Part shown: positions 36,181 to 57,344 of the stretch, piece by piece
How positions within the stretch are numbered: the stretch's first letter is position 1
How the letters are laid out: the number at the start of each line of letters is the position of its first letter
Origin: Cyanobium sp.
GTDB lineage: Bacteria; Cyanobacteriota; Cyanobacteriia; PCC-6307; Cyanobiaceae
Direction of reading: 5' to 3'
NCBI GenBank assembly: GCA_014191755.1
Contig: BJHE01000005.1
Coordinates: 20,850-84,849, forward strand
DNA: 64,000 bases
Notes under the pieces: model-generated
Database searches by the model: none
Told to the model about the DNA's origin: nothing
Seen by the model: the letters and a program-made list of their open reading frames with translations, nothing else
Translations under genes and position numbers: made by a program

Positions 36181-36390
36181 CGTCTCTTCTGCATTGTCTC
36201 TTCTGCGGCGGATCGGAAGGCAAGGAACGGAACGCAGGGCGGGACTCGGGTCCCAGGGAGGGTCTGTTTGCAACCTAGGCCTATATCCCGAGCGACCCAC
36301 CGGGCACGCCCCCTCCACGGCCTGAGGCCAGAAGGCCAACAACGGAATCCACCCTATGATCAGGGTTGGTCCCTTCCCAAGACACCCTCC

Positions 36391-36712: not shown

Positions 36713-37888
36713 TCACAAAAAACGGGCCCGCACCAGGGCGTAATCGTCGGTGAAACAGATGCAACCACTAAGCCGCCGTACCCGCTGCACCAACCGCTCC
36801 AGTCCATCGCCGGCGGCGATCTCGTTCGCATCAATCCCGTCGATGAAGGCCGGCAGGTTCCAGATCTCGCCATTGGGCCGGCTCACTTCATAGATGCCGT
36901 CGCTGTAGACCAGCAGCGTGGTGCCCGGGGGTACTGCCACGCTCGCCTGACGGTAGATGGAGTCATCGAACAGACCCACGGCCATCCCACGGGTGGAGAG
37001 CTGGAGCAGCTCCCCAGCCATTCCGGGCATCGGGAACAGCAGGGCGGGTGGATGGCCACCGCTCGCGTACCGCAGTTCCCTGCGGGAGGGCTGATAGATG
37101 CCGCACCACAAGGTGAGGTAGCGATCCTCCTGCCCTTCCATCTGGAACAAACGGTTGAGCGCGAGGGCAAGGGTTTCGGGGCGTTCCGGATCGAGATCGA
37201 TTCCGCCGCTGCGCAGCAGGTTCAGGATCGAGATCGATGGCAGGGCGGCCGCCAGTCCATGGCCTGAGACATCCAGCAGATAGAGAAGTAGGTGGTCCTC
37301 GTCGAGCCAGAGGAAATCAAAGCCGTCGCCACCGAGCTGGCTGGAGGGACAGAACAGCGAATCAATCCGGACGGAGGGCGACTCCAGGGGTTTTGGCAGC
37401 AGGTCTGCCACATACCGGGCCGCTTCGGCCAGTTCGCCATCCAGGCGGGCCTTCTGCTGCTGCAGATCCTGGGAGAGCACACGCAGCTGCTCATTGGCAT
37501 TGTGGAGCCGCAGCCCGGAGCGCACCCGGGCCAGCAGCTCCTCGGGATCGACGGGCTTGCTGAGGAAATCGTCGGCACCTGCGTCAAGACCCCGCACCCG
37601 GTCCTGAACCTGGGAGCGTGAGGTGAGCAGGATGAAGTAGGCACTGGCCAGCTGGGGATCCTCCCTGACGCGCCAGCACACTTCCAGCCCGTCCATTCCC
37701 TCCATCAACCAGTCGCAGAGGATCACCTCCGGGTGAAGCGAGCGGGCGAGATCCAGACCCTCATTCCCGCTAGGGGCCTCGCGGACGCGGTAGCCCTGCT
37801 GCTCCAGCCGGGTGCGCAGGATTCGGGAATGGATGCGGTCGTCATCCACCAGCAGGATCGAGGGCGAGTCGGCGGCAGAGACATCCAT
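36713..37888 (-). CDS. Response regulator with PP2C/SpoIIE phosphatase output (RsbU-like)
   Basis: Receiver SILLVDDDRIHSRILRTRLEQQGYRV...VILCDWLMEGMDGLEV...LSKPVDPEELLARV; SpoIIE LGGDGFDFLWLDEDHLLLYLLDVSGHGLAAAL...SGGHPPALL...DDYALVRARF. Confidence 0.9.
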   Translation of the reverse strand: MDVSAADSPSILLVDDDRIHSRILRTRLEQQGYRVREAPSGNEGLDLARSLHPEVILCDWLMEGMDGLEVCWRVREDPQLASAYFILLTSRSQVQDRVRGLDAGADDFLSKPVDPEELLARVRSGLRLHNANEQLRVLSQDLQQQKARLDGELAEAARYVADLLPKPLESPSVRIDSLFCPSSQLGGDGFDFLWLDEDHLLLYLLDVSGHGLAAALPSISILNLLRSGGIDLDPERPETLALALNRLFQMEGQEDRYLTLWCGIYQPSRRELRYASGGHPPALLFPMPGMAGELLQLSTRGMAVGLFDDSIYRQASVAVPPGTTLLVYSDGIYEVSRPNGEIWNLPAFIDGIDANEIAAGDGLERLVQRVRRLSGCICFTDDYALVRARFL

Positions 37889-37924
37889 GCGGGACGATTG
37901 GAGCGGAACAGGGAATGGGGCCAC

Positions 37925-40900
37925 TCAGCCGAGGACGCCAGAGGGGCGACGTCGTCGCAAGGCCTCCGTCACCCTTCCGGATTCCTGCAGCAACTGGTCG
38001 ATCGACTCGTGCGGCCAGGGGGCCGCGGTGTCGCGCAGCGCATCCTCCACGTCCCGGCAGAAGGCTGCCAGCCTCAGGGCCCCGAGGCTGGCGCTGGGCG
38101 AGCGCAGGGCATGAGCGGCCGTTCCGATCTTCGCGGCATCGCCGGTGGGGAGGGCCCTCACGATTGCGCCCACCCGCTGCATCGCATCCTCGAGGTAGAG
38201 GTCGACCAGTTCGGCCACAGCGGCTTCCCCCTCGCTGCCCACCAGGTCAACCAACTCCCGCCAGACAGCTGGATCGATGGGCTCCTCTCCCGGAGGAGCT
38301 TCCCTGCCTTCCCGGGCAGAGGGGCCCGCATCGACGGCCGCCCGGGGCTCCTGATGGGTCTGGTAACGCTCGAGGGACTGGCGCAGAGCCTCCAGGGAGA
38401 TGGGTTTGCTCACGAAGTCGTCCATGCCGGCGGACAGGCAGGCCTGGCGGTCCTTGGCGCGGGCATGGGCGGTCATGGCGATGATCCAGGGCTGGCGTCC
38501 GTCCAGGCTGCGGATGCGCTGGGTGGCCTCAAAACCATCAATCCCCGGCATCTGGATGTCCATGAAGACCACGTCGTAGGGGCGTTGGCTCAGGGCTTCG
38601 AGGGCCTCCTGGCCACCGGCCGCCACATCGCCGCCCCGGTACCCCAGCTGGTGCAGCAGCTGCAGCGCCAGCCGGCGGTTGACTGCGATGTCCTCCACCA
38701 CCAGGATGCTCAGGGGAAGGTGCTGGGCCAGTGGCACGGGAGTCGCGCCTCTGCTTGCTTCCCCACTCCAGGGAGGTACGCCGGGTGGCGGGGGGACTGG
38801 GGCTTCGGGTGAGCGGGGAGCCTGCTCCGGGAGCAGTTGCCGCACGACGGCACCGGCGAGCTGCACCTGACGGACCGGCTTGCCCACCAGCACCGGATCA
38901 CCCAGTCCGAGGGCGGAAACCTCTTCGGGACGAACGCCCCGGGCGGCCAGCATGATCGAAGGTGTCGTCGCCGCACCGGCATCCCGCAGCCGTCGCCCCG
39001 TGGCCTCTCTCCTGTCGGGCGCCAGCAGCTGGTCGTCGATCACCACCAGGGAGAATCCGCCTTCCGACTCTCCGGGCGGTCCGCCCTTGTCACAGGAGCC
39101 AACCACGGCCAGGCCCAGGCCCTCCAGCTGCTGGGCGATGCATTCGCCGTACCCCGCGTCTGCCACCATCACCAACGCCCTGTAGCCCCGCAGCTCCGCC
39201 ATCGGCAGGCAGCAGTCCTCTCGGGAAGCGTGGTCCACCCCCAGCCGCACCTGGAACGTGAAGGTGGAGCCGACACCCTCCTGGGATGTCAAGCCGATGT
39301 CCCCCTCCATGCGCAGGCAGAGACTGCGGCAGATCGCCAGTCCAAGTCCGGTGCCTCCGAAGCGACGGGCCATCGAGGAGTCGGTCTGGCTGAAGGGACG
39401 GAAAAGCAGGTGAAGGCGATCGGCGGGGATGCCGATGCCGCTGTCGCGCACCTCGAAATCGAGAACGAAGGTTTCGCGCTCGCCAGGGGAGGTGGGCAGC
39501 GGCTGACCGCTCACCGCCACCACCACCGAGCCGGCTGGCGTGAACTTCACCGCATTGCTGAGCAGGTTCCATAAGATCTGCTGCAGGCGTGTGCGATCGC
39601 CAACCACATGGGTGGGAAGGCATCTGGGGAAGAGGTAGTAGAGATCCAGATCTTTCTCGAGCGCCTGCGGGGCCATCAGATCGAGGGCCTCCTCAATGCA
39701 GACCCGCAGATCGAAGACCTCTTCCTCCAACTCCAGATTGCCCGATTCGATCTTGGAGAAGTCAAGGATGTCGTTGATGATCCTTAGCAGGGAATCGGTG
39801 CTGGTTTTGATGATGTTGACATAGTCTTTCTGGATTGGGTCGAGTTCGGTATTCGCCAGAAGTCCGCTCATGCCCATGATGGCGTTCATCGGTGTGCGGA
39901 TCTCATGGCTCATGGTGGCTAAGAAGGTGTCCTTGGCTTCGTTGGCCTGCTCCGCGGCCTGTTTGGCGGCCAGCAGTACTTCGTTGCGCCATGTCAGCAG
40001 CTGGGCCTCCTGGATTTCCTTCTCCAGGATCGCCGCCTGGGTGAGGGCGATGGCGAATTTGGCGGCAAGATTGCCCAGCAGTTCGCCATCCTCCTCCTCC
40101 CAGTTCTTGACGCCAACCCAGGGGTGGAGGATCAGGCAACCCCAGGCCCTCGCACCGGTCACGATCGGTGCCACCATCGCTTCGAAGGGTTGATGCTCAC
40201 AGAGCAGGGCGAAACGAAGGCCGGGCTCCTCCTCTTCCGCAGGTCCCGGGTCCTTGAGAATCTTCCGAACCTGGCCATCGGCCAGGGTTTCCACCAGGCT
40301 CGGGCTCAGGCCCGGCTCCCCAAGTTTCTGACCATGGAGCCGGGGCGCGTTGCCGCAGGGGATGTCCTCGACCACCGTGGCGACGACGGACGGTTCGGTG
40401 GGAGAGTGATCGAACCGCAGGAGCATGATCCGCTCGGCATTCAGCAGATCGCGGATCCGCGGACAGGTGGCGGCGATGCGCTCCTCCAGGGGGCCGCTGC
40501 CGCGGATCATCTCGCCGATCTCCTTCACGACCGTCAGGCGGCGGAGCTGCTGCACGAGACCGTCTTCACGCCGCCGTCGCTGGTTGATGTCCTGCAGGGT
40601 GCCCACCAGTCGCAGGGCCCGCCCGGTGGTTTCCCGCTCCACCACCCGGCCGCGATCGAGCATCCATCGCCAGGCACCCTCGCGGGTTCGCCACCTCAAC
40701 TCACAGGCATAAAAGGGGGTTTCGCCCTGCAGGTGAGCCTGGAGGCCGGCATGCATCCGGTCGAGATCCTCAGGATGAATCAGTTGATCCCGCAGGTCAC
40801 CGTCACCGGGCAGATCCTCCGGCGCGTAGCCGATCAGCTGGAACCAGCGTTCACTTCGCTCCACATGGCCGTTGGAGAGATTCCAGTCCCAGAGGCCCTC

Positions 40901-41389
40901 TTCAAACGCGTCGAGCGCCAGCTGCAGCCGCGCCTCCTTTTCCGCCAGCGCCCGTGTGGGTAAAGGGTGGAGGACGGGGGGATCGGGCAGCGCATGCCGC
41001 AGAGGCAGAGGGGAGTGCGTCAGACCCTGGCTAGCGAGCTCATCGGTGGCGCTCAGCCATGGCGTGACCACGACCAGCAGATGGGGGTCATCCTCCAGAA
41101 CGCAAAGCTGGCCATCCATCAGCAGATTCCGGCGCCGGCAGCGCAGGCGAATCAGGTTGTGTTGTTGCTCGCTCAGGTTGGTAAGGGAGAGCAAACAGGT
41201 GGGACTGAGCAGCTCGAAGACATCCTGCAGTTGGTGACCGATCGTTTCCATGCGCCCGAGAAGCCGTTCAAGCGAAGCTCCAAGAGCCTCGATCCGCAAC
41301 TCAGCATCCAGGAGGATGTGGAAGGGAAACATGCGTGCAATCCCAGCTGCCGGAAGGTGCACCGTTCCGCTGCTGTTCGGATCACTCAT
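37925..41389 (-). CDS. Hybrid histidine kinase: HNOBA-like N-terminus, PAS, GAF, HisKA, HATPase, degenerate receiver, receiver, HPt
   Basis: FPFHILLDAELRIEALGASLERLLG...DGQLCVLEDDPHLLVVVTPWLSATDELASQGLTHSPLPLRHALPD; TFLATMSHEIRTPMNAIMGMSGLL; LSILVVEDIAVNRRLALQLLHQLGY; HPt IGTAAHALRSPSASLGALRLAAFCRDVE. Confidence 0.85.
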   Translation of the reverse strand: MSDPNSSGTVHLPAAGIARMFPFHILLDAELRIEALGASLERLLGRMETIGHQLQDVFELLSPTCLLSLTNLSEQQHNLIRLRCRRRNLLMDGQLCVLEDDPHLLVVVTPWLSATDELASQGLTHSPLPLRHALPDPPVLHPLPTRALAEKEARLQLALDAFEEGLWDWNLSNGHVERSERWFQLIGYAPEDLPGDGDLRDQLIHPEDLDRMHAGLQAHLQGETPFYACELRWRTREGAWRWMLDRGRVVERETTGRALRLVGTLQDINQRRRREDGLVQQLRRLTVVKEIGEMIRGSGPLEERIAATCPRIRDLLNAERIMLLRFDHSPTEPSVVATVVEDIPCGNAPRLHGQKLGEPGLSPSLVETLADGQVRKILKDPGPAEEEEPGLRFALLCEHQPFEAMVAPIVTGARAWGCLILHPWVGVKNWEEEDGELLGNLAAKFAIALTQAAILEKEIQEAQLLTWRNEVLLAAKQAAEQANEAKDTFLATMSHEIRTPMNAIMGMSGLLANTELDPIQKDYVNIIKTSTDSLLRIINDILDFSKIESGNLELEEEVFDLRVCIEEALDLMAPQALEKDLDLYYLFPRCLPTHVVGDRTRLQQILWNLLSNAVKFTPAGSVVVAVSGQPLPTSPGERETFVLDFEVRDSGIGIPADRLHLLFRPFSQTDSSMARRFGGTGLGLAICRSLCLRMEGDIGLTSQEGVGSTFTFQVRLGVDHASREDCCLPMAELRGYRALVMVADAGYGECIAQQLEGLGLAVVGSCDKGGPPGESEGGFSLVVIDDQLLAPDRREATGRRLRDAGAATTPSIMLAARGVRPEEVSALGLGDPVLVGKPVRQVQLAGAVVRQLLPEQAPRSPEAPVPPPPGVPPWSGEASRGATPVPLAQHLPLSILVVEDIAVNRRLALQLLHQLGYRGGDVAAGGQEALEALSQRPYDVVFMDIQMPGIDGFEATQRIRSLDGRQPWIIAMTAHARAKDRQACLSAGMDDFVSKPISLEALRQSLERYQTHQEPRAAVDAGPSAREGREAPPGEEPIDPAVWRELVDLVGSEGEAAVAELVDLYLEDAMQRVGAIVRALPTGDAAKIGTAAHALRSPSASLGALRLAAFCRDVEDALRDTAAPWPHESIDQLLQESGRVTEALRRRRPSGVLG

Positions 41390-41550
41390 AGGGGACAAAG
41401 TGCAGGGTCGGATGCCTGAGACGTCCGTCTCCGGTGAGATGAAGTAGGCCTGAGAGGCCCTGGGGATAGGCCTCCGGCCACTCTATGACGTGGACCCCAA
41501 AAACTGAACCAGCCCACATGAGAGTTTCCCTATCGGCCAGGAGATGCCCC

Positions 41551-41829
41551 ATGAAGCGCAAACGCCACAGCCCCGAGCAGATCATCCGCATGCTGCGCAG
41601 TGCTGAGCAGCTGCTCAATCAAGGCCAAAAAGTTGCCGATGTATGCCGAGCCCTGGAGGTTTCCGCTGCCACCTATCACCGCTGGCAGCAGCTATACGGG
41701 GGGATGAGAGCCACCGAGGCCAATCGCCTGAAGGAGCTGGAGCAGGAAAACTCTCGGCTCAAGCGTCTACTCGCCGATGCAGAACTCGACAAGGCCATGC
41801 TCAAGGAGCTTGCCGAGGGAAACTTCTGA
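41551..41829 (+). CDS. IS3-family transposase OrfA (HTH_Tnp)
   Basis: MKRKRHSPEQIIRMLRSAEQLLNQGQKVADVCRALEVSAATYHRWQQLYGGMRATEANRLKELEQENSRLKRLLADAELDKAMLKELAEGNF. Confidence 0.93.
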   Translation: MKRKRHSPEQIIRMLRSAEQLLNQGQKVADVCRALEVSAATYHRWQQLYGGMRATEANRLKELEQENSRLKRLLADAELDKAMLKELAEGNF

Positions 41830-42608
41830 GCCCGGAACGTCGCCGCAGAGCTGTCAACGTTCTGCTGGACCGATTCCGGGTTTCCCAACGCCGTGCATGC
41901 CGTTTAGCGGGTCAGAACCGCAATACCCAACGACGCCCCGTGCCGCTGGCAGACATCGAGGAGCAGAAGCTGCGCAGTCGCATCCGGGAGCTGGCCCGGA
42001 GTTATTTGCGCTGGGGCCGACGGCTGGTCTACAGGCGCCTGCGAGTGGAGGGCTGGGAGGTCAATCACAAGCGGGTGCAACGGATCTGGCGTGAGGAAGA
42101 GCTGCAGCGTCCCCTACCGCGCAAGCGGAAACGCGCTCGGCCATCGGACGGCTCCAGAACGCTGCTGAGAGCCGAGTACCCGCACCATATATGGGCGATT
42201 GATTTACAATTTGATCAGACAAGGGATGGCCTAAGACTAAACTTCCTGAACATTATCGATGAATACAGCCGCGTCTGCTTGGCGATTCGTGTTAGCAGGA
42301 CGTGCAAGGCGGTGGATGTGATTGCTGCCATTGAAGAACTCCTTGGGCAATATCCAGTCCCCACCCATCTACGGATGGACAACGGCCCTGAGTTCATTGC
42401 TCATGCATTGCAAGAGTGGTGCATGAGCAATAAATCGGGCACGGCATACATCCCCCCAGGCTCACCTTCGGAGAATCCATTTGTGGAGTCATTCAACGGC
42501 AGGTTCAGAGATAAATTCCTGAATATTGAGCTGTTCGCATCATTGGCTGAGGCCAAGCTGTTGGCAGAGCAGCACCGAATCGAGTACAACTTCTATAAAC
42601 CGCATTAG
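41826..42608 (+). pseudogene. IS3-family transposase OrfB (rve/DDE), apparently truncated at C-terminus
   Basis: HHIWAIDLQFDQTRDGLRLNFLNIIDEYSRVCLAIRV...LRMDNGPEFIAHAL...NPFVESFNGRFRDKFLNIELF...YNFYKPH*, followed in frame by ALQQWKAA*. Confidence 0.8.
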
Positions 42609-42971: not shown

Positions 42972-44294
42972 TCAGAGCACCACCGGGGGTCGAGGCAAGG
43001 GCTTCTCCTGGAGCGCCATCCCCATGACAAGCATTCCTGGCCAATAGAGATAGACAAGAATCTCAAGGTTCTCGCCAAAAGTATACATAAACAGAATTAT
43101 GATCACTCCTAGTCCCGTTGAGCCGAGTCGATAGCTGGAACTTGCAGCCCGGCGCAACATATCAAGTAGCGTGACCAACATGGGAACAGCCAGAGCAACA
43201 AAGCCAACAAGTCCTTTCACGAAAAGAACCCCAGCCCAGGTGTGATGAGAGCCAATGGCCATGTACTCCACCAGATGTGGTCCACCCTCCACTACACCAT
43301 GCCCCCAAATCGGTGCTTCTGTCTCCCAGCGATGGAAAGCGATTCGCTTTAAGGCAAAGCGAACACGGGTAGAACCAGCCCTTGCCCCCTTGAATCCTTC
43401 CCAGTAATCGCTGACGGCGGTGAGAATCGAAGTGGCAAAGATACCGCCAAGATAGGATACAACTCCAAGAGTAATCAGCATCAACGGCTGTCGGAGCCTT
43501 GCAATGATCGCGGTGGTCAACGGAATCAGGATGATGCTGAGCTGGGCAAGACGGGACTTACACACAAAGCACATCAGAATGGATCCAATGATGCCAAGAA
43601 TCTTCCATTTACGATTTTTTTCCTGCAGGCAAATCATGAAGTTGATGTTGCCAACAAAACCCAGAGCCGGTCCCCAAGGGGCGAAGAGCCGCCACCGAAG
43701 ATCACCAGTGCTGCCATCAATCTCGTAGAGTGGAACATCAAAGAACTCATTCCCGGGACCGCCTATAGCTCTTAATGGCGAAACATAGAGAACTTCTGGC
43801 AGACCTAGATTAGGGGTAAGCAGCAGCAGTGGCATAATTAGGAGAGTATGAAAACCCACGATGCAGATTGCTCGCGTTGGGATACTGCTACGGATCGGCA
43901 GTGCTCCTGCCAATGGATAAAGTGCGAGAGCCGCCCATCCCTTGGCCCACCCGATTGAGGACTTGATGATAATCCCAGTACCAAGATTAAAATTTACATG
44001 CCCAGCAATCAAGGCAACTTGCATAATAATCATCCCAATGATCCATAGCCAGATCACAGGCGATATGGAAATCTCCTCGTTCTCTTCTGGGTGATCCATG
44101 CGGGCGAGGATCTTGATGAGCAAGCAAACCAGTAGCAGCCAGCAGAGAACAGATCCAACCACATACAGGCCGCCAATGATCCAAATTGGATAGGTAAGAA
44201 TAATGGACCACCAGACTAAGCGCTCAGGCACATTCTGGGGCTGAAGATTGTCTTCAGAGTCAAAAACCTTCGAAAGAAGTGATTTCAGTCCCAA
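42972..44294 (-). CDS. Wzy/O-antigen ligase-like polytopic polysaccharide polymerase
   Basis: 440 aa multi-TM protein with a loop IWGHGVVEGGPHLVEYMAIGSHHTWAGVLFVKGLVGFVALAVPML typical of Wzy_C proteins; adjacent to Wzz- and Wza-like genes. Confidence 0.75.
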   Translation of the reverse strand: MGLKSLLSKVFDSEDNLQPQNVPERLVWWSIILTYPIWIIGGLYVVGSVLCWLLLVCLLIKILARMDHPEENEEISISPVIWLWIIGMIIMQVALIAGHVNFNLGTGIIIKSSIGWAKGWAALALYPLAGALPIRSSIPTRAICIVGFHTLLIMPLLLLTPNLGLPEVLYVSPLRAIGGPGNEFFDVPLYEIDGSTGDLRWRLFAPWGPALGFVGNINFMICLQEKNRKWKILGIIGSILMCFVCKSRLAQLSIILIPLTTAIIARLRQPLMLITLGVVSYLGGIFATSILTAVSDYWEGFKGARAGSTRVRFALKRIAFHRWETEAPIWGHGVVEGGPHLVEYMAIGSHHTWAGVLFVKGLVGFVALAVPMLVTLLDMLRRAASSSYRLGSTGLGVIIILFMYTFGENLEILVYLYWPGMLVMGMALQEKPLPRPPVVL

Positions 44295-44307
44295 GGCAGT
44301 CTCCCGA

Positions 44308-45819
44308 CTAAGTAGAAATCCATTTTGAGACCCGCTTGATCCAGGGCTTACGAATCCACAGGATCCAGAAACCTGCTGTCGTCAGGATGGAACCGATTGC
44401 CGAGCCAGCAAGAACCAACGTTCGCTTTGGCGAAGTAGCTTTTTCAGGAAGGCTAGGCTCAACAGCAACCTGGATCAGCGGAAAAGCAGCAAAGATATTC
44501 GCTTGACCAAGATCTAGCTTGGCTAATGTGGATGCAAAGACTGCCTCAGCTATCTGTTCATTTCGCTTCAGGTTTTCCAAGGTAGACTGCCTCTGTGTCA
44601 TCCATTTGAGCCGATCCTCCAGGGAACTGATCTGTTGATCAAGCTTGCCAACCTGAGATGCTGCACCTGATGCTTCTGATTGGTAGTTAACCAGGTTTTG
44701 AAAGAGAGAATCTCGCCCCGAACTATTCCCTGTCAGAGCAAGACGTATCAGGGTACTGGCAGATGCAGGACGTCCAAGTAATGCCATCGCCCGTTGGTTC
44801 ATCGCTTGCTTGGCAGCCTCTTGCCGCTTGATCTCTTTAAGGATTCGGGGATTGTTGCGGCCAAACTTTGAGAGCTGAACGTCTAGGACTGCGGTAGCTT
44901 CGCTATAGTCTTTTAAGGTCTGCTGAAAAATCTGATCGACTTGCAGCTTAAAGGCATCAGCAGCCTCGGATGGAGAAAGACCTAGGCTGCGGCTCAATTT
45001 CTGCAGTCGACTCTCAGCCTGTGCTTGCTGAGCTGCAAGCTCAGCCCGCTGCTTGCGAAGTTGTTCAATATTCGAAGACAGTGATTCAACCTGTTCTATA
45101 GAAGTAAGTCCAGATTTCTGCTTATATGCAGAAACTTTTTTCTGTGCGTCCTCAAGCTTCCTCTGCGTTTCAAGCAGAATCTGCTGTGCTGGATCTTGCC
45201 GTTGCTCAATCTCACTGACACGCAGCTCATTTAGGCGCTCCACCATAGCGTCATACAATGCATGGGCCCGCTTCCTTGCATCCTCAGGCGAAGGTCCAGT
45301 GACATCGATTTGCATCAGTGTTGTATTATCAATATTCTTGATGCGGGGCTTTGCAAACATTTCCTTAGGAATCCTTGCTAGCTTAGCGGCACGAGCCAGA
45401 ACCTGCTCACTTCTGAAGATGTATTCGTAGTTAGCGCGCGGATCAAAAGTCGCCAAGCCAAGGGATTCATTTGTTGCCGTGGCTTCACCAACACCGGGTA
45501 AGCTCAGATTTACAGCATTAGCACTTCCAGGCAGAACCAAGGCCCAAGAACTGGTATAGACGGGCTTAGCAAGCAGAAGGTATAGAATACTGGAACCCCA
45601 TATCAGACCGTTGGTGCATGTGCTTACAAAGAGATAACGGCTCCAGCGAAGTTTATCGGTTCGACTCAGTCGTTGCCACCATCCTTTTGGATCGGGAACC
45701 TTGAGACCTGGAATATTTCGTGCCTGCTCAGTGAATAAACGAGCCGTCTTCAACAAGGGCTCAGGCACAGCCGGCATTCGAGGCCTTATTCGTTTAATAA
45801 ACTGTTCTGGTTTTGTCAC
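44308..45819 (-). CDS. Wzz/KpsE-like polysaccharide co-polymerase/export protein, no tyrosine-kinase domain
   Basis: Two terminal TM segments with long coiled-coil (ETQRKLEDAQKKVSAYKQKSGLTSIEQVESLSSNIEQLRKQRAELAAQQAQAESRL); C-terminal SLPEKATSPKRTLVLAGSAIGSILTTAGFWILWIRKPW. Confidence 0.8.
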   Translation of the reverse strand: MTKPEQFIKRIRPRMPAVPEPLLKTARLFTEQARNIPGLKVPDPKGWWQRLSRTDKLRWSRYLFVSTCTNGLIWGSSILYLLLAKPVYTSSWALVLPGSANAVNLSLPGVGEATATNESLGLATFDPRANYEYIFRSEQVLARAAKLARIPKEMFAKPRIKNIDNTTLMQIDVTGPSPEDARKRAHALYDAMVERLNELRVSEIEQRQDPAQQILLETQRKLEDAQKKVSAYKQKSGLTSIEQVESLSSNIEQLRKQRAELAAQQAQAESRLQKLSRSLGLSPSEAADAFKLQVDQIFQQTLKDYSEATAVLDVQLSKFGRNNPRILKEIKRQEAAKQAMNQRAMALLGRPASASTLIRLALTGNSSGRDSLFQNLVNYQSEASGAASQVGKLDQQISSLEDRLKWMTQRQSTLENLKRNEQIAEAVFASTLAKLDLGQANIFAAFPLIQVAVEPSLPEKATSPKRTLVLAGSAIGSILTTAGFWILWIRKPWIKRVSKWIST

Positions 45820-45825
45820 TAGAGC

Positions 45826-46896
45826 TTATGGAACAAACCGATTGTAGATCAAAATGCTCGGAGCCAGGAATTGAGTGATAATGCCCAAAACGGACTGGAA
45901 GCTTGTTACACTAGAATCATAACAAGCAAACCCATCATCGGCCATAAGATAAGGGTTGTTGGCGCTATTGGTGGAATTGCGGAGTGCTTGTTCAACTCCC
46001 CGATCAAAAACAGTGGTCTTCCCGGTGGCTGTTTGGGTTCTCACTAAAACGGCTCGGCGTCGTGCGTTGGTAATCATCGTTCCACCAGCACAGTTGGCCG
46101 AGACAACTGCATGAGAGAACCGGGAACCATAAGGAAACTTCTGGGCTTCAGTGCCGATCACGCGACCTGGAACTGTAAGATTAGAGATATTAATCATTAT
46201 CTCCGATGGCGTGATATTCGAAGGGCGGACTAAAAGTGGATTCACGGTGCCAGTGTCGGGAATAGTCACCTGGTCGCCTGCAATCAGTGGAATGTCGTTA
46301 AATGGTTGTCCGGTGAAGACACCGGTCAAATCAACGACTCGCTTGCGTGATCCGCGTTTTAGTTCCACAGCTGTGACATCTGCTGTGGGCGTGATGCCGC
46401 CGGCAAGTTTCAGTGCCGTAGTCAGCATCCGATTCAGCGGAGCATGCCCAGAAAGTTGAACGGGTGTCTGTAGTTGCTCGGCGTCACTCAGTTCACTAAT
46501 CAAAACTCGGCCGGGCTGAAAGATGGATCCTGAAACGAAAACGGGAATAGGTGCCCACTGGATGACACTTAAACTTACCCTGAGAAAAGATGGTTGAAAA
46601 AAGCCTTGCTTTACGAGGGCTTGGTAGACACGCTGCTGCAGCTCTTCAGGCTCAAGGCCAACAGCGTAAATTCGCTTAGCAATGGGAAGCTCAAGCTCTC
46701 CGTTGAAATTGATGTCAAAAATGCCGCTAAACTCTTCCCCTTCTGGAATTGTAATCTTAACCCGATCCCCTGGCGATATCGGCAAAGCAATACATGCTCC
46801 GGCAGTGCCTAGCAAGCTGGCTATTCCTGCAAGGCATAACAGGAATTTCGACATGTGTATCGATCTGAGTGTTGCTTTGAGAGCTAATCTCATCAA
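45826..46896 (-). CDS. Polysaccharide export outer-membrane protein (Wza-like, SLBB domains)
   Basis: ISPGDRVKITIPEGEEFSGIFDINFNGELELPIAKRIYAVGLEPEELQQRVYQALVKQGFF; VFVSGSIFQPGRV. Confidence 0.85.
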   Translation of the reverse strand: MMRLALKATLRSIHMSKFLLCLAGIASLLGTAGACIALPISPGDRVKITIPEGEEFSGIFDINFNGELELPIAKRIYAVGLEPEELQQRVYQALVKQGFFQPSFLRVSLSVIQWAPIPVFVSGSIFQPGRVLISELSDAEQLQTPVQLSGHAPLNRMLTTALKLAGGITPTADVTAVELKRGSRKRVVDLTGVFTGQPFNDIPLIAGDQVTIPDTGTVNPLLVRPSNITPSEIMINISNLTVPGRVIGTEAQKFPYGSRFSHAVVSANCAGGTMITNARRRAVLVRTQTATGKTTVFDRGVEQALRNSTNSANNPYLMADDGFACYDSSVTSFQSVLGIITQFLAPSILIYNRFVP

Positions 46897-47423
46897 TCAT
46901 AGCGCATCTGATGTCTGCGGGCGCAACCACCATGCTTGCAGGGCACTGGCCTTGAAGTCCCGCTCCATCGGGCCATGGTCAGCCATGGTCGGAACAACCT
47001 GAGCAGGCTGTAGGTGGTGACCATCACTGACCACTCGTCATTCGCCTGTTCGGCCGTGATGCTCAGTTCTCGCACCATCCGCCTCTGCGGTCCAGATGCT
47101 GGCATGGGGTCACCCGTGAAGGCCTCGACCACTGCCCGTTCCTGGAGAACTGGGGTCCTGATCGATCCGCGACACGCATACAGAGGTTTTGTTGCTGCGC
47201 AAGACCTGCGAGAGACAAACTGCTTGATTGTGATGTTCAACGTCTGCTCGAGCCAGACCTGGCTTTCGAATGTGGCATGCAGCCGGCAATACGACTGGCG
47301 CCTCAACCCCCTGGCAAAATGAGAGGAGATTTTATTTACTCAAGCAACGTTTCCAGAATCATGGCAGGCTGGCGTTTAAAGTGAACTGTCGGCTCACTGA
47401 ACATCCCTCGTTTACGAAGGTTT

Positions 47424-48518
47424 ATGGTCCAAATCGGCTTGATGAACGCTTACAGCACTCTCAACCTTGGGGATGCTGCGATATATAGCGCATTTCGAAA
47501 GCTCTTGCCACAGGTTGATCTGGTTGCCTGCGTGCGAGACAAGCATCCAGATCCAACACTAGGAATTGACTTCCGATCTCAACGCCCCAGTGACTGCCAA
47601 GCATACATCAGCGTCGGCGGAGACATCTTTAACAACTCACGGGAGTGGCTCGTTACAAAAGCTTTTCTGCAGAATCTGGCTGAACTGCGTAGGAACCCTC
47701 GCCACACCATTCTCTTCGGACAATCAATACCTCGATCTTGCCACGGCCTCAGCTTCCTCCTTCTAAGCCAATGTCTTCTGAGGCTGCCTGCTGTCTGCGT
47801 AAGAGATTCAGAGAGCCATCAGCGTTTAAGCCAGGCTGGTGTTGAAGCGCGGCTCTCCTACGATACTGCTTTTGTTTTAGAGTCTTCAGTTCCAGCAATA
47901 CAGAAAGCCCATGCCATTCTTAGCCAGAAAGGTATCGATCAGGCGAAAGCAGCAGTCCTTTCTGTCCGTGGCTTTGATAGCATGTACAGCCATAGTAATG
48001 ACAAGTTTGTCGAGAGAATGTCACATCTCTGTCTAAGCCTACAGCACAACGGTTATCAGCCACTCATTCTGATCCAGTCTCGTGCCTACGGAGCGGATAA
48101 CGACCTTGATGTTGCCAAGACAATCCAGAGCGCTGCTCCGGGAACAGAAATTTTTGATCCATTTCTGGAGGACCGAAGTGTCCCAAGTTGGCAGCTTGCT
48201 ATGGCACTTTTTACTCTAGTAGATCTCGTTATAGCCGTTCGATTTCATACAGCTGTCCTGTCACTGGCTGCTGGCCGTGTGCCTTTCCAACTCCACTACT
48301 CAAACAAGGGCCGCGACCTCTGTAAACGGCTTGAACTTCCTGGATGTGACTTGAGCCAATTCAACCCTATCTCTGATCTGTCTGCAATAATGGCAACGTC
48401 TGGGCGCACGTTCAATCCATCACCGATCCGGGAGCAAGTCTCACGTGATTTTAGGTGGTGCCTTGATCAGCTTCCTGGAAGGTTGATGGGGGATACGATT
48501 GCAGGTGGCAAGGCGTGA
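47424..48518 (+). CDS. Polysaccharide pyruvyl transferase family protein
   Basis: LMNAYSTLNLGDAAIYSAFRKLLPQVDLV, AYISVGGDIFNNSREW, ILFGQSIPRS, VCVRDSESHQRLSQAGVEARLSYDTAFVLE. Confidence 0.82.
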   Translation: MVQIGLMNAYSTLNLGDAAIYSAFRKLLPQVDLVACVRDKHPDPTLGIDFRSQRPSDCQAYISVGGDIFNNSREWLVTKAFLQNLAELRRNPRHTILFGQSIPRSCHGLSFLLLSQCLLRLPAVCVRDSESHQRLSQAGVEARLSYDTAFVLESSVPAIQKAHAILSQKGIDQAKAAVLSVRGFDSMYSHSNDKFVERMSHLCLSLQHNGYQPLILIQSRAYGADNDLDVAKTIQSAAPGTEIFDPFLEDRSVPSWQLAMALFTLVDLVIAVRFHTAVLSLAAGRVPFQLHYSNKGRDLCKRLELPGCDLSQFNPISDLSAIMATSGRTFNPSPIREQVSRDFRWCLDQLPGRLMGDTIAGGKA

Positions 48519-49073
48519 GGCTTCCACAGCTGCCTCAAATCTTCGGCGAAAGGTGGCTCTTTTGCGTTGATGACCTGAAGGTAGTAGCTTTGTGGTGCAA
48601 GCAGCTCGGGTGGATTTGCTTCTGCATGGGGAAGCCGGCATCTGGTTTTCAGGATCCATGCTTGTATGCACAATCAGAGATTCCTGGGTTTACATGCTCG
48701 CTTAAGAGCTCTGCATCTAACCATTCAGGCTGCGGATTGGCCCAGATCGCACCAATCGCTGCTTGCAGGATCATGGATTCGCACTAGCCTTCTGATGATC
48801 ATGTCATGCCCGTACCACTACGATTGCCAATGGTTGCACAGCAGAAATCGAGATCTGTCTTCATGGGATGGCTGAAGCAACGATGAGACTTTCCTGGGTC
48901 ATGCAGAGCTGCGTGCGGGCATCGATGGCATCTCTGACCGGCATGATGAAAAGAGATCAGCCGCAGCTGCAGAGTGGTGGAGATTTCCATTGGTCTTCAT
49001 TTCTCTACATGAGAGCGATACACCCTCTTCATGTTCACCAACTGCGTCCATCCCGTCGCTCAGGAGATTCTTG

Positions 49074-50339
49074 ATGGGTTTTCTCAGCAATCTGATTCCC
49101 AAAGACCGCTTCATCCGCAACATGGGATGGATGGGAGCGGGCGAATTGGGCATTCGTGTCTCCCGCCTATTGGCTACTGTCATTCTGGCGAGGCTCCTGA
49201 GCCCGAAAGACTATGGACTGGCGGCCATTGTCTTGATGACCAATGAGTTCGTTCGGGTGTTTACACGCAATGGTATTGGTGACAAGATTGTTCAGGCTGA
49301 TGCCGAGGAACTCAGCGAGGTATGCCAGACAGCATGGAGCCTGAATTGGGTCATCGGGGCCAGCCTTTGCCTGATTCAGATTGCTGCTTCCTTCGTGATC
49401 GGCAGAATTTATAATGATTCCAGCTTGATTCTGCCCATCATATTGGTGAGTTTCAGCTATCTGATCTACCCGTTTGCGATGGTCCAGACAGCATTGATCC
49501 GTCGTGAGAATAGACTCAAAATCTTTAGTCTCACCTATCTTGTCTCAGTTGTTAGCGATAATCTGTTAACTGGTGCGCTGGCTCTGCTGGGCTGGGGGAT
49601 GTGGGCGATTGTGCTGCCAAAGCTTCTGGTGGCTCCAGTCTGGGTCGCCATGATGCTGAAGTTCGAAGCATGGCGCCCAGCCCGTAGGTTCACATTGAAG
49701 CGCTGGTCTAACGTCATGAGCTTTGGAAGTCGCATCCTTGGTGTGGAGTTGCTCAATACCTTTCGCGAAAGTGTGGACTACCTTCTGATTGGACGCATGA
49801 TCGGCCTGAAGGCGCTTGGAGTCTATTATTTTGCCTTTAATGCTGGGCTCGGCCTTAGCATCAGTGTGATTAGTGCTCTTTCTATCTCTCTCTATTCAGA
49901 TTTCTGTGATGTTCGAACTGTGCCGCAACTGTTGAGGCAGAGATTCAATAAAAACCTTTTCACAATTGCCAAAGTGATGGTGCCATTGGTCTTTCTTCAG
50001 TGCAGCCTGGCACCCTTTTATGTTCCTATTATCTTCGGACCCAAGTGGGTCGATGAAGGCGCATTACCAATACTCATTCTGATCTGTATGTCGGCTTTGT
50101 CGCGTCCCTTTGCCGTTGCGTCATCTATGCTCTTCCGTGCAGTTGGGCTGCCGCAGGTTGATCTGAATTGGAATATCGGCTTTACCATTGCATTAACTAT
50201 TGCCATCTTGGTTGGCACTCACTGGGGTATCCTTGGCGTTGCAATCGCCGTAGTTGCGACTCATCTAACGCTCCAGCCAATCTATGTTCTGATGGCCAAA
50301 GGTTTTCTCAATCGGCGGGGACATGAGCTGCCGGCTTGA
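49074..50339 (+). CDS. Oligosaccharide flippase (Wzx-like, MVF superfamily)
   Basis: DRFIRNMGWMGAGELGIRVSRLLATVILARLLSPKDYGLAAIVLMTNEFVRVFTRNGIGDKIVQ; about 12-14 TM. ATG 49074. Confidence 0.85.
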   Translation: MGFLSNLIPKDRFIRNMGWMGAGELGIRVSRLLATVILARLLSPKDYGLAAIVLMTNEFVRVFTRNGIGDKIVQADAEELSEVCQTAWSLNWVIGASLCLIQIAASFVIGRIYNDSSLILPIILVSFSYLIYPFAMVQTALIRRENRLKIFSLTYLVSVVSDNLLTGALALLGWGMWAIVLPKLLVAPVWVAMMLKFEAWRPARRFTLKRWSNVMSFGSRILGVELLNTFRESVDYLLIGRMIGLKALGVYYFAFNAGLGLSISVISALSISLYSDFCDVRTVPQLLRQRFNKNLFTIAKVMVPLVFLQCSLAPFYVPIIFGPKWVDEGALPILILICMSALSRPFAVASSMLFRAVGLPQVDLNWNIGFTIALTIAILVGTHWGILGVAIAVVATHLTLQPIYVLMAKGFLNRRGHELPA

Positions 50340-52800: not shown

Positions 52801-54885
52801 GTGACAGCACCAGCTCTGAAACCTGACGATCCCGACATCTCAGTGGTGGTACCAGTTTTCAACGCGGCTCCCCATCTGCTGGCAACCCTCCGCACCGTTC
52901 AACAACAAACTCTCAGCAACTGGGAACTGATCGCTGTCGATGACGGCTCGACCGATGCAAGCGCCAGCCTCGTCGCCGAACTGGCCCAGTCGGACCATCG
53001 AATTCGTTTGGTGCGGCAGGCAAACGCTGGCGTTTCGATCGCTCGCAACCGCGGCGTTGCCGCCTGCCGCGCCCCGCTGATCGCCTTCCTTGATGCCGAC
53101 GACCTCTGGCACCCCGACAAGCTTCTTGCCCACCTGGAGCGTCATCAGGCCGATGGCGACCTGGGTGTGAGTTTTGCCCGGGTGGAGTTCCTCACCCCAG
53201 CTGGACGGCCCACGGGGCTGGTGGCCTCCCATCCGCAGCTGCCGCTGCGGCCGCCGGACCTGCTCTGCGAGAACCCCACCACCACCACCTCGAACTGGGT
53301 GCTGCGGCGGGAGGTCTTCGAGGCGGTGGGAGGATTTCTAGAGGGGCTGAGCTATTCGGAGGATCTCGAGTGGCTGCTGCGTGTGATCTGCGATGGCCGC
53401 TGGCGGATCGAACCGATCGATCGGGTTCTCACCTACTACCGCACATCCGCCGGTGGCCTCTCCTCCAGCCTCGAGAAGATGGAGGAGGGCTGGCTCCGGC
53501 TGATCGGCGAGGCTCGCCGCTACGCCCCGGAGCTGGTTGCAGCTCACTTCGCCGCCGCCCAGGCCGTGCACCTGCGCTACCTGGCCCGCCGTTCGCTGCG
53601 GCTTCGGGGAGATCCGGCCCAGGGTGTTGACTTCATGGTGAGGGCCCTGCAATCCGATCTCCCTCGGCTCCTGCGGGAACCCCATCGCACCTCCCCCACT
53701 GCCCTGGCGGTGCTGGGCCGCCTTCTCATCCATCGCGCCCGAGCGCCGCTGGCCTCTCCTGCCCCCCCCACTCCTTTCATCCATGCCGATGGTCCGACCC
53801 GCCCTGATGCCGTGAGCCGCCCCGATTTCCCCGCCACCCTGGTGTCCGTGGTGATGCCCCTTTACAACTCCGCCGCCACCGTGCGGGCTAGTCTGGAGTC
53901 GGTGATGGCGCAGACTTACACCAACCTCGAGATCCTGGTGGTGGACGATGGCTCCACCGATGAGGGGGTGGCGCTCTGTCGCAGCACCGAAGATCCGCGC
54001 CTTCGCATCGTCCAGCAGAAGAATCGTGGCCTTGCGGGAGCACGCAACACGGGTATCCGTGAATCCTCCGGCTCGTTCGTGGCCTTCCTCGACAGCGACG
54101 ATCTCTGGCTGCCGGAGAAGATCCAGCGTCATGTGGATCACCTGTGCGCCCATCCAGAGGTGGGCGTGAGCTATTCCTGCTCCGCCTTCATCGATGGAGC
54201 CGGCAAATCCCTGGGCATCTACCAGACCCCGGCCCTGCACCACATCACGCCGGATCTGATCCTTTGCCGCAACCCGATCAGCAATGGCTCCTGCGTGGTG
54301 CTCCGCCGCCAGGTGCTTGACGGCATCCGCTTCGAGGCGAATCTCTACGGCACGACGGAGAGTTACTGGTTCGACGACTCCTTCCGACAGTCGGAGGACA
54401 TCGAGTGCTGGATCCGCATCGCTCTCCAGACCAGCTGGCAGATCGAGGGCATCGGCGAGGCGCTCACCCTCTACCGGGTGAGCAGCGGCGGCCTCTCGGC
54501 GAACATCGAGAAGCAGTTCGCCAGCTGGCAGAGGGTTCTCGACAAGACCGCCACCTATGCGCCCGACTTCATCGCCCGCCACGGCCGCAGGGCCCGTGGC
54601 TATCAGCTCCGCTACCTCGCCCGACGGGCCATCCAGGAGCGACAGCCCCGAGTGGGGGTGCGGCTGGTCCACCAGTCCATCGGCACCTACCCCAGGCAGC
54701 TTCTGGAGGAGCCTTTCCGCACCCTGATCACTCTGGCGGCGGGCTATCTCGGCGTGCTGCTGCCGGCCTCCCTCCATAGCCTGCTGGAGCGGGTCATGAT
54801 GCGGGTCATCGGAGCGATGCAGCGTCTCAGGATCGATGCAAGCGCCAGACGCCATCCGGACAGCCGCGCCAGCAAAGGGGCCTGA
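52801..54885 (+). CDS. Tandem double GT2 glycosyltransferase (two full GT-A domains)
   Basis: Domain 1 DISVVVPVFNAAPHLLATLRTVQQQTLSNWELIAVDDGSTD...AFLDADDLWHPDK; domain 2 LVSVVMPLYNSAATVRASLESVMAQTYTNLEILVVDDGSTD...AFLDSDDLWLPEK. Confidence 0.9.
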   Translation: MTAPALKPDDPDISVVVPVFNAAPHLLATLRTVQQQTLSNWELIAVDDGSTDASASLVAELAQSDHRIRLVRQANAGVSIARNRGVAACRAPLIAFLDADDLWHPDKLLAHLERHQADGDLGVSFARVEFLTPAGRPTGLVASHPQLPLRPPDLLCENPTTTTSNWVLRREVFEAVGGFLEGLSYSEDLEWLLRVICDGRWRIEPIDRVLTYYRTSAGGLSSSLEKMEEGWLRLIGEARRYAPELVAAHFAAAQAVHLRYLARRSLRLRGDPAQGVDFMVRALQSDLPRLLREPHRTSPTALAVLGRLLIHRARAPLASPAPPTPFIHADGPTRPDAVSRPDFPATLVSVVMPLYNSAATVRASLESVMAQTYTNLEILVVDDGSTDEGVALCRSTEDPRLRIVQQKNRGLAGARNTGIRESSGSFVAFLDSDDLWLPEKIQRHVDHLCAHPEVGVSYSCSAFIDGAGKSLGIYQTPALHHITPDLILCRNPISNGSCVVLRRQVLDGIRFEANLYGTTESYWFDDSFRQSEDIECWIRIALQTSWQIEGIGEALTLYRVSSGGLSANIEKQFASWQRVLDKTATYAPDFIARHGRRARGYQLRYLARRAIQERQPRVGVRLVHQSIGTYPRQLLEEPFRTLITLAAGYLGVLLPASLHSLLERVMMRVIGAMQRLRIDASARRHPDSRASKGA

Positions 54886-54889
54886 GGCG

Positions 54890-55375
54890 ATGAAAGTTCT
54901 GCTCGTGTGTTCCTCCGGCGGTCATTTCAAGGGACTCTTCCAGTTGGAGCAGTTCTGGAGCCGCCACTCCCGCCGCTGGGTCACCTTCGAAACTCCCACC
55001 ACCCGCATGGCCCTCGAAGGCGAGCAGGTGCACTGGGCCTACAGCCCCACCAACCGCAATCTGCCGAACCTGCTGCGCAATACGCTCCTCTCATGGAGTG
55101 TTCTGCTCCACCACAGGCCCGACCTGATCCTCTCCACCGGCGCCGGCGTGGCCGTTCCCTTCCTGATCCTGGGCAAGCTGCTGGGCCACCGCACCGTCTT
55201 CGTGGAGTCGATCACCCGGATCGAGACCCTCAGCCTCTCGGCCCGCCTGGCGCTTCCCTTCATTGATGTGCTCTACGTGCACTGGCCGCAGCTGCAGACC
55301 CGCTACCCCCGAGCCGAGCTGATCGGGGCCGGCTCCAGAGCTGCGGTCGCCCCGGCCCAGGATGTGGCCCGATGA
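54890..55375 (+). CDS. PssD/ALG14-like glycosyltransferase subunit
   Basis: MKVLLVCSSGGHFKGLFQLEQFWSRHSRRWVTFETPTTRMAL...PDLILSTGAGVAVPFLILGKLLGHRTVFVESITRIETLSLSARL. Confidence 0.88.
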   Translation: MKVLLVCSSGGHFKGLFQLEQFWSRHSRRWVTFETPTTRMALEGEQVHWAYSPTNRNLPNLLRNTLLSWSVLLHHRPDLILSTGAGVAVPFLILGKLLGHRTVFVESITRIETLSLSARLALPFIDVLYVHWPQLQTRYPRAELIGAGSRAAVAPAQDVAR

Positions 55376-55860
55376 TCCTGGTCACCGTGGGCACCGAGAA
55401 GTTTCCCTTCGACCGGCTGATGCACTGGATCGAGGAACTGATGGAGGCCGATCTGCTCGGGGAGGAGGTGGTGGTGCAGTACGGCACCTGCACGGTGCTC
55501 CCCGCAGGCTCGAAGGTGTATCGCCTCATGCGTGAGACAGAGTTCCGGGCCCTGATCCAGCAGGCGCGGGTGGTGGTGGCCCACTGCGGTGAGGGCACCG
55601 TGCTGCTGCTGGACGCCATGGAGACCCCTTTCATCCTCGTGCCCCGCAGCCAGCGCTACCGAGAGCATGTGGACGATCACCAGGTGGAGCTGGCCCAGGC
55701 GATGGCCTCCATGGGAGTCCCGATCGCCTGGGGGCCGGCCGATCTCGTGCGTTTCCTGGCGGAACCCCGCAAGGTGTCGATCAGCGATCTGTCGGTGGCC
55801 GCGGCCCAGGTGGTCTGCAACCGCCTCGAGCAGCGTTTCCCAGCCTTGGGCCCGGCATGA
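55372..55860 (+). CDS. PssE/ALG13-like glycosyltransferase subunit
   Basis: MILVTVGTEKFPFDRLMHWIEELMEADLLGEEVVVQYGTCTV...VVAHCGEGTVLLLDAMETPFILVPRSQRYREHVDDHQVELAQAM. Confidence 0.88.
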   Translation: MILVTVGTEKFPFDRLMHWIEELMEADLLGEEVVVQYGTCTVLPAGSKVYRLMRETEFRALIQQARVVVAHCGEGTVLLLDAMETPFILVPRSQRYREHVDDHQVELAQAMASMGVPIAWGPADLVRFLAEPRKVSISDLSVAAAQVVCNRLEQRFPALGPA

Positions 55861-56873
55861 ACACACCAACCTCCCAGCCCCCTTCGCCTTCCCCCAGTGG
55901 CGTGCTGGTGAGTGAACACCGCGGCGTGCTGCTGCTTTCGTTTCCGCGGCGGTTCACCGTGCAGGAGGCGATCCCCTTCCGCCGTTGCCTCGAGCGCGAG
56001 CTGCCGCTCCACCCCGGCACCCGCCGGGTGGTGCTGGATTTCAGCCGCACCGAACTGATCGACAGCAGCGGCCTGGGCTCCCTCATCCCCAACGTGAAAC
56101 TGGCCCGCTCCCACGCGATTCCCCTGGTGGCCTGGAGCGCCGGCGCCCAGGTGAAGCTAGCCCTGTCCCTGGTGGGGTTGGAGCAGGCGATTACGGTGAT
56201 GCCAGGCACCGAAGCGGTGAATCCCACCCGGGCGGTGAACACCAAGGAACGTCCCGCGACCACCCATCCCTCGGTGCGCTCGGTCCCGAAGCGGCTGCTC
56301 GACATCGTCGGTGCCCTGCTCGGCTTATCCGTCACGGCGGTGCTGTTCCCCTTCCTGGCGCTGGCGATCCGGCTCGACAGTCCGGGGCCGATCCTGTTCA
56401 GCCAGGTGCGGCTGGGCTGGATGGGCCGCCGCTTCCGCTTCTGGAAGTTCCGCTCGATGGTGGTGAATGCCGAAGCCCTGCGCGGCACGGTTGAAAACGA
56501 GGCCAGCGGCGCCTTTTTCAAGAACAAGAACGACCCGCGCATCACCCGGGTGGGCCGCTTCCTGCGCAAAACCAGCCTTGATGAGATCCCCCAGTTCTGG
56601 AACGTGCTGGTGGGGGACATGAGCCTGATCGGCACGCGACCGCCCACCCCCGATGAGGTGGAGCGCTATGCCGTGCCCAACTGGCAGCGGCTCGATGTGC
56701 GGCCAGGCCTCTCGGGGGAATGGCAGGTGAACGGCCGCTCGCAGGTGATTGATTTCGAGGATGTGATCCGCCTGGACCTTCGTTACCAGGAGAACTGGAG
56801 CCTCGGCTACGACCTGAAGCTGATTGTGCGGACCTTCACCGTGATCTTCAGCAAGGGCTCGGGAGCCGCCTGA
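55857..56873 (+). CDS. Fusion: N-terminal STAS domain + polyprenyl-phosphate sugar transferase (initiating exopolysaccharide glycosyltransferase)
   Basis: STAS: FTVQEAIPFRRCLERELPLHPGTRRVVLDFSRTELIDSSGLGSLIPNVKLARSHAIPLVAWSAGAQVKLALSLVGLEQAITV. Transferase: KRLLDIVGALLGLSVTAVLFPFLALAIRLDSPGPILFSQVRLGWMGRRFRFWKFRSM...DPRITRVGRFLRKTSLDEIPQFWNVLVGDMSLIGTRP. Confidence 0.92.
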   Translation: MNTPTSQPPSPSPSGVLVSEHRGVLLLSFPRRFTVQEAIPFRRCLERELPLHPGTRRVVLDFSRTELIDSSGLGSLIPNVKLARSHAIPLVAWSAGAQVKLALSLVGLEQAITVMPGTEAVNPTRAVNTKERPATTHPSVRSVPKRLLDIVGALLGLSVTAVLFPFLALAIRLDSPGPILFSQVRLGWMGRRFRFWKFRSMVVNAEALRGTVENEASGAFFKNKNDPRITRVGRFLRKTSLDEIPQFWNVLVGDMSLIGTRPPTPDEVERYAVPNWQRLDVRPGLSGEWQVNGRSQVIDFEDVIRLDLRYQENWSLGYDLKLIVRTFTVIFSKGSGAA

Positions 56874-56876
56874 ACC

Positions 56877-57344
56877 ATGCAGCACGGCGAGGGTGAAGCC
56901 CAGGCGGAGTTCCCCAGCACCCTCGACGCCATCGGCCAGTTGCTGGAGTGGTTTGAGCAGCACCGGCCTGGAGGCCTCGACGACATGGTGTGGATTCAGG
57001 CCCAGACGGCCCTGATGGAAGGCTTCACTAACGCCGTCCGCCATGCCAACGCCCTCCTGGAGCCCCCGCCGTTGGTGGAGGTCACCCTCGCCCTGGTTGC
57101 CGGCAGTCTGCGCATGGGGATCCGCGACCAAGGAGCTCCCTTCGATCTGGAGACGCATCTGCAGGCTCACGCAGCAGAGGTGGAGGAGCCCCCCGGGCTC
57201 GACGGCCTGCCCGAGCGCGAGGCCCACTGGGGGGTGATCATCCTCAGCAGGCTCCAGCGGGACTTCGGCTGGTCGATCCGTTACGAGCCGCTGGCGGAGG
57301 GGGGCAACCTGCTGCTGCTGGAGGGGCCGGGCGGCGATTCGTAG
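56877..57344 (+). CDS. Anti-sigma-factor-type serine kinase (HATPase_c, RsbW/SpoIIAB-like)
   Basis: QTALMEGFTNAVRHANALLEPPPLVEVTLALVAGSLRMGIRDQGAPFDLE (N-box ExxxNAxxHA, G1 DxGxxF); starts 4 bp after the sugar transferase stop. Confidence 0.85.
   Translation: MQHGEGEAQAEFPSTLDAIGQLLEWFEQHRPGGLDDMVWIQAQTALMEGFTNAVRHANALLEPPPLVEVTLALVAGSLRMGIRDQGAPFDLETHLQAHAAEVEEPPGLDGLPEREAHWGVIILSRLQRDFGWSIRYEPLAEGGNLLLLEGPGGDS

Follow-up and report, generated by a model that had tools for sequence, protein, structure and literature searches.

In a 64,000-nucleotide stretch of Cyanobium sp. DNA, hereafter the window, a gene for a predicted serine kinase of the RsbW/SpoIIAB type lies directly behind a gene in which a STAS domain is fused to a sugar transferase. 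The question raised by this locus is which protein the kinase acts on. The original prediction named the STAS domain of the transferase, on the ground that no sigma factor is encoded nearby, and regarded the two genes as a self-contained post-translational switch of exopolysaccharide production. Judged from sequence and fold comparisons, the transferase STAS is indeed the best-supported candidate client, on evidence other than the missing sigma factor gene and within a larger gene set.

Results

An anti-sigma factor-like serine kinase that is not an RsbW orthologue

The kinase (Table 1) matched the Pfam family HATPase_c_2 (PF13581) over residues 12-144 with 44.1 bits against a curated cut-off of 27.4 (E 2.5e-11), and thus belongs to the superfamily of anti-sigma factor-like serine kinases. 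In contrast, the two NCBIfam RsbW equivalogs scored only 19.6 and 15.1 bits against cut-offs of 145 and 155, so strict RsbW orthology was rejected; of the HATPase_c_2/RsbW profile search proposed earlier, the former half held and the latter did not. The AF2 model of the kinase (pLDDT 88.2) has a predicted Bergerat (GHKL) fold, for which Foldseek returned SpoIIAB as the best match in the PDB (1til, E 2.7e-07, and 1th8) and also matched RsbW (6m37), the nearest SpoIIAB being the form complexed with SpoIIAA. When the PDB was searched with a family profile built from 20 orthologues, the first match was B. subtilis RsbW in complex with RsbV (6m36, E 2.3e-06); such a profile was required, as a single-sequence phmmer search gave mostly spurious matches with de novo TIM barrels on top. 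Both motifs on which the kinase had been recognised are present, the N-box as MEGFTNAVRHA (E48...N52) and the G1 box as RDQGAPFD (D84-x-G86). Among 86 fusion-linked kinases, E48, N52 and G86 are each found in 86 and D84 in 85.

Table 1. Positions of the genes and domains discussed, numbered from the first nucleotide of the window
Feature	Position	Strand	Remarks
Stand-alone STAS protein	36391-36699	+	~102 aa, FMDSSG; PF01740 67 bits
Receiver + SpoIIE/PP2C serine phosphatase	36713-37924	-	403 aa; PF00072 98 bits, PF07228 131 bits
Hybrid histidine kinase	37925-41398	-	PAS, GAF, HisKA, HATPase, receiver and Hpt; ORF abuts phosphatase ORF
Wzy-like	42972-44294	-	Named from position and synteny, no Pfam match
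Wzc-like	44308-45819	-	Named from position and synteny, no Pfam match
Wza-like export protein	45826-46896	-	Pfam
Pyruvyl transferase	47424-48518	+	Pfam
Flippase	48990-50339	+	Pfam
Double GT2 glycosyltransferase	52801-54885	+	Closely spaced/overlapping run into fusion gene
Alg14-like	54890-55375	+	Same-strand run upstream of fusion
Alg13/GT28-like	55372-55860	+	Same-strand run, leads into fusion
STAS-phosphoglycosyl transferase fusion, likely kinase client	55857-56873	+	338 aa; PF01740/PF13466 and Bac_transf PF02397 (217 bits)
STAS domain of fusion	55911-56201	+	Residues 19-115; IDSSG, predicted phospho-acceptor Ser70 (codon 56064-56066)
Bac_transf (monotopic PGT) domain of fusion	56289-56849	+	Residues 145-331; KR K145-R146, Asp-Glu dyad D242-E243
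RsbW/SpoIIAB-like GHKL serine kinase (predicted)	56877-57344	+	155 aa, ATG start; PF13581

The fusion joins a SpoIIAA-like STAS domain to an initiating phosphoglycosyl transferase

The upstream gene encodes, as had been proposed, a STAS domain followed by a Bac_transf domain. A profile of the STAS domain found SpoIIAA, taken from its complex with SpoIIAB (1th8_B, E 1.8e-09), as the top PDB match, and the alignment lays the IDSSG of the fusion onto MDSSG of SpoIIAA, which makes Ser70 the predicted phospho-acceptor. Its counterpart in SpoIIAA is the phospho-acceptor Ser58. The motif residues I68-D69-S70-S71-G72 do not vary among 18 fusions aligned from the order. K145, R146, D242 and E243 of the transferase domain, residues that mark it as a monotopic phosphoglycosyl transferase (PGT), are invariant too, and WbaP and PglC are the best PDB matches of this part. 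A fold search with the whole fusion matched WbaP, PglC and SpoIIAA, the AF2 model (26 sequences) being good for the STAS domain and a long membrane helix and poor for part of the catalytic domain. The linker RPxxTHPSVRSxxKR (56250-56294, residues 132-146) is nearly invariant across Cyanobacteria, whether the kinase is present or absent.

The fusion closes a same-strand run of glycosyltransferase genes, the first of which encodes two fused GT2 domains (694 aa) and is conserved in relatives; terminator-like sites in this run (52801-55860) did not exceed chance. The rest of the polysaccharide cluster (42972-50339) shows synteny in relatives. An IS3-type transposase-like ORF (41643-42608), recognised by eye, separates the polysaccharide genes from the hybrid histidine kinase.

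Kinase and fusion are paired throughout the order

In the window, the fusion stop codon (56871-56873) and the kinase ATG are separated by 3 bp; the kinase is directly downstream as described, beginning on the fourth base. When 200 genomes of the order were surveyed for the fusion, 19 besides that of the window were found to carry it, and the kinase follows directly in 20/20 fusion-bearing genomes, starting between -4 and +7 bp relative to the fusion stop, at many loci with overlapping start and stop codons. A reverse survey of 300 genomes of the order, starting from the kinase, gave 28 kinases, 27 of which have a transferase, complete or as its 3' end, immediately upstream. The transferase is partial at three loci (L338, L339 and L342), of which L338 lies at a contig start and L339 is apparently truncated, and the sole exception among the 28 is a broken kinase remnant in genome G187. 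The kinase is missing from most fusion-less genomes of the order. Chance adjacency can thus be rejected, given 20/20 loci from one side, 27/28 from the other and the invariant N-box Glu and Asn. Conservation of the neighbourhood, by which the original prediction could have failed, therefore speaks for it.

Some individual loci deviate. At L339 (G142:C1:3048365) the kinase is intact and only the last ~45 transferase positions precede it, the fusion gene being apparently truncated or rearranged, and the decayed kinase of G187 (L345, G187:C1:145476) lies in two frames with no fusion alongside, as if the pair had been lost together. One of the 19 fusions (L031, G010:C30) is read in two overlapping frames, with STAS and transferase apart and the kinase intact, which may be a frameshift or an assembly error; another (L013, G059:C10) has an in-frame TAG within the STAS-transferase ORF, and its remainder is 80% identical to the fusion of the window.

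Distribution of the pair in the class Cyanobacteriia

The fusion is widespread in the class Cyanobacteriia. The kinase was found within 1 kb downstream of it at 31/80 loci of a first class-wide set and at 35/68 loci of a second, fractions that describe the best-scoring fusion matches and are not an unbiased census. In the first set (loci of ~13 kb), 31 of 32 kinase matches lie within 0.5 kb of the fusion 3' end, and 30 of these share its strand. Kinase-bearing loci of the second set include those of Synechococcus WH 5701, Nostoc parmelioides, Richelia sinica, Calothrix PCC 7103, Planktothrix, Microcoleus vaginatus and Oscillatoria princeps. No kinase was seen at 10 loci with a STAS-less transferase (0/10). 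Mapped on the fusion tree, presence of the kinase changes 7 times, against 51 with shuffled labels, and the fusion-linked kinases form largely one group, separate from the other RsbW-like kinases sampled. At two loci (L119, L094 (G392:C179)) a second STAS, with 94 bits to the STAS of the fusion, lies just upstream of the fusion, as if split or duplicated.

The phospho-acceptor motif DSS is present in 83/84 kinase-linked fusions; a STAS domain with a serine is thus encoded beside the kinase, as in partner switching. About half of the fusions sampled class-wide have no adjacent kinase and yet keep DSSG, so the motif alone is no proof that this kinase acts on the STAS domain; the kinase-less fusions may be served by other kinases. 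Loss of DSSG was considered as a discriminator of kinase-less fusions and rejected, as these retain it. A test for co-variation between kinase and STAS distances was likewise dropped as evidence, because the class-wide partial correlation of 0.62 (kinase and STAS given the PGT, 62 loci) failed its control: within the family, the unrelated neighbours Alg13 and Alg14 gave 0.49 and 0.45, more than the kinase (0.24).

A serine phosphatase, a second STAS protein and hybrid histidine kinases are linked to the pair

The pair is not self-contained, contrary to what had been supposed. For a serine phosphate to be removed again a phosphatase is required, and one that is conserved is linked to the pair: a genome search for PP2C proteins placed one SpoIIE phosphatase within the window, a receiver-PP2C protein with the receiver aspartates and the motifs DVSGHG and SDGIYE. 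Its gene and the neighbouring ones, for a stand-alone STAS protein and a hybrid histidine kinase, lie 15-20 kb upstream of the pair. Using these three genes as queries in neighbourhoods of up to 40 kb in 19 relatives, we found receiver-PP2C, STAS-only and hybrid kinase genes within 20 kb of the pair in 18/19. The DSxG of the STAS-only proteins and the metal motifs of the PP2C proteins are mostly intact. Class-wide, a PP2C gene lies near the fusion at 18/66 kinase-bearing and 0/75 kinase-less loci, and a STAS-only gene at 17/66 and 4/75, respectively, counts whose p-values overstate independence since the loci are related by descent. Several loci of Nostocales have all four genes (fusion, kinase, STAS-only and PP2C) in a stretch of ~3 kb. 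From its gene content, the pair is part of what appears to be a complete phosphatase-STAS-kinase set with two-component input.

Directly beside the STAS-only gene, another hybrid histidine kinase is encoded (33847-36450; domains HisKA, HATPase and receiver), and in many relatives further histidine kinase matches lie beyond the phosphatase; a multi-kinase network is therefore possible as input.

The presence of a stand-alone STAS also bears on how the kinase would reach the transferase. The enzyme could occupy the position of a sigma factor, being inhibited by the kinase through its STAS domain with no need of phosphorylation, while the dephosphorylated stand-alone STAS titrates the kinase. Linkage of stand-alone STAS and PP2C genes in relatives, compact in Nostocales, and the excess of STAS-only genes at kinase-bearing loci would fit such an arrangement. 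However, the STAS domain of the fusion keeps a phospho-acceptor serine that would be superfluous in a pure binding target, and many kinase-bearing loci have no linked second STAS, so we consider control by binding alone unlikely.

Sigma factors and other partner-switching genes of the genome

None of the 14 Sigma70_r2 matches of the genome lies on the contig of the window (C5, 111,776 bp), in agreement with the earlier observation that no sigma factor is encoded near the pair. That the STAS domain must be the client does not follow from this, since in Synechocystis the sigma factor SigC is controlled by Slr1861, to which it is not linked; Slr1861 came to light through the icfG operon, not as a neighbour of sigC or ssr1600 (PMC12329169). 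With this precedent (Slr1861/Ssr1600/SigC), and with all 14 matches elsewhere in the genome, the kinase might act as anti-sigma factor on a sigma factor encoded at a distance, antagonised by the STAS of the fusion and the stand-alone STAS, in which case engagement of the transferase would report polysaccharide status to transcription. The contig lacking a sigma gene is one point against it; the other is that the kinase of this order hardly ever occurs apart from the fusion and is missing from most genomes without it. We regard this role as improbable.

Beyond the set described above, the genome has another stand-alone RsbW-like kinase, one PP2C-HATPase protein and one more STAS-only gene, so cross-talk with other STAS proteins and RsbW-like kinases is possible. 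Another stand-alone STAS gene, next to a carA-like one, is located on the contig of the window, 10.7 kb past the window end (L316:10740-11168, G000:C5), and may be a further client of the kinase.

The ATP lid

The lid of the window's kinase is H117-W118-G119. In its clade the usual G-x-G (GGMG/GRGL) is replaced by AHWG, so that two usual lid glycines are missing and the last Gly alone is kept, and kinase activity is therefore possibly reduced. Relatives in Microcoleus, Planktothrix and Oscillatoria retain a canonical lid (GRG/GGRG; GR or RG-type). That the kinase is catalytically weak or dead, serving as a structural subunit of the transferase or surviving as an operon relic, would suit this HWG lid and is very improbable, given the conserved N-box and G1 residues, the canonical lid of those relatives and a pairing retained over large divergence. 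Its conserved residues suggest that the protein is likely, if not assured, to be active as a kinase.

Discussion

Taken together, the cognate client of the kinase is probably the STAS domain of the transferase, with Ser70 phosphorylated by the kinase, dephosphorylated by the receiver-PP2C protein and gating polysaccharide initiation. In the most likely course, the kinase would bind the STAS domain and phosphorylate Ser70 within IDSSG. Dephosphorylation would fall to the linked phosphatase, acting under the hybrid histidine kinase encoded next to it, and the stand-alone STAS, as a second client, would compete for the RsbW-like kinase. Synthesis by an exopolysaccharide cluster of the Wzx/Wzy type would thereby be controlled at the protein level, at its first committed step. 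We infer the substrate and activity of the kinase from conserved residues and linkage, and likewise that phosphatase, STAS-only protein and histidine kinase belong to one circuit. The direction of the switch is a guess by analogy: unphosphorylated SypA and HmpV are described as the active forms in PMC8256260, and the phosphorylated fusion may accordingly be the OFF state. Whether a partner switch of this kind, with an initiating PGT and not a sigma factor as output, and with a histidine kinase acting through receiver-PP2C on STAS dephosphorylation against a dedicated RsbW-like kinase, operates throughout the cyanobacterial phylum is a proposal to which we give even chances.

The pair resembles RsbW/RsbV and SpoIIAB/SpoIIAA of Bacillus in kinase fold and N-box, in STAS fold and DSSG serine, and in gene adjacency. 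Unlike here, the client in Bacillus is a sigma factor, and the kinase of the window scores well short of the cut-offs for RsbW equivalogs. Slr1861/Ssr1600/SigC and PmgA of Synechocystis likewise involve cyanobacterial RsbW-like kinases acting on STAS proteins (PMC12329169), but the demonstrated output of Slr1861 is a sigma factor, with no fusion to a transferase.

Partner switching with polysaccharide as output is also known. In Vibrio fischeri, the STAS protein SypA governs polysaccharide-dependent biofilm through its phospho-serine, at a level below transcription (PMC10120452), but SypA is a single domain with no known target, and SypE combines kinase and phosphatase in one protein, unlike the set of the window. 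HmpU, HmpV and HmpW of Nostoc punctiforme form a phosphatase-STAS-kinase switch for hormogonium motility and polysaccharide (Riley et al. 2018, as summarised in PMC8256260 and PMC6495340). As far as these summaries go, it is, like the present set, a cyanobacterial partner switch whose output is a STAS protein and for which no sigma client is known; HmpV has a single domain and no known target, whereas the STAS of the window is fused to an initiating transferase, and the phosphatase of the window has a receiver domain, unlike that system.

The two halves of the proposed output have precedents as well. All4160 of Anabaena PCC 7120 has an N-terminal STAS and a glycosyltransferase domain (PMC8256260, citing Wang et al. 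2007), the same domain order as our fusion, and synthesis of the heterocyst envelope polysaccharide depends on all4160 among other genes (PMC4390870); the lines on All4160 in PMC8256260, however, mention no kinase partner. In Myxococcus xanthus, EpsW activates EpsZ post-translationally (PMC12802240), so that a signalling protein controls an initiating monotopic PGT as proposed here, although EpsW is a single-domain response regulator and the pair of the window is a STAS protein with a serine kinase.

Thus, the STAS-glycosyltransferase fusion (All4160), sigma-less polysaccharide partner switching (HmpUVW, SypA/SypE) and post-translational PGT control (EpsW/EpsZ) were already known. What appears to be new is the combination, conserved over Cyanobacteria, of a dedicated kinase, a linked phosphatase and a second STAS with an initiating transferase; a literature search for a STAS-sugar transferase-kinase system found no description of one.

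For SypA/SypE and HmpUVW no direct target of the STAS protein is known, while here the STAS is part of the very enzyme that starts the polysaccharide. Because it is fused to that enzyme and a dedicated kinase is adjacent in many cyanobacteria, the target of a non-sigma partner switch becomes directly testable. If the proposed mechanism is true, serine phosphorylation would join the short list of bacterial controls on initiating phosphoglycosyl transferases, and it would provide a point of access to the formation of slime, biofilms and colonies in cyanobacteria: phosphorylation of the transferase itself may be how bacteria with this pair turn slime production on and off.
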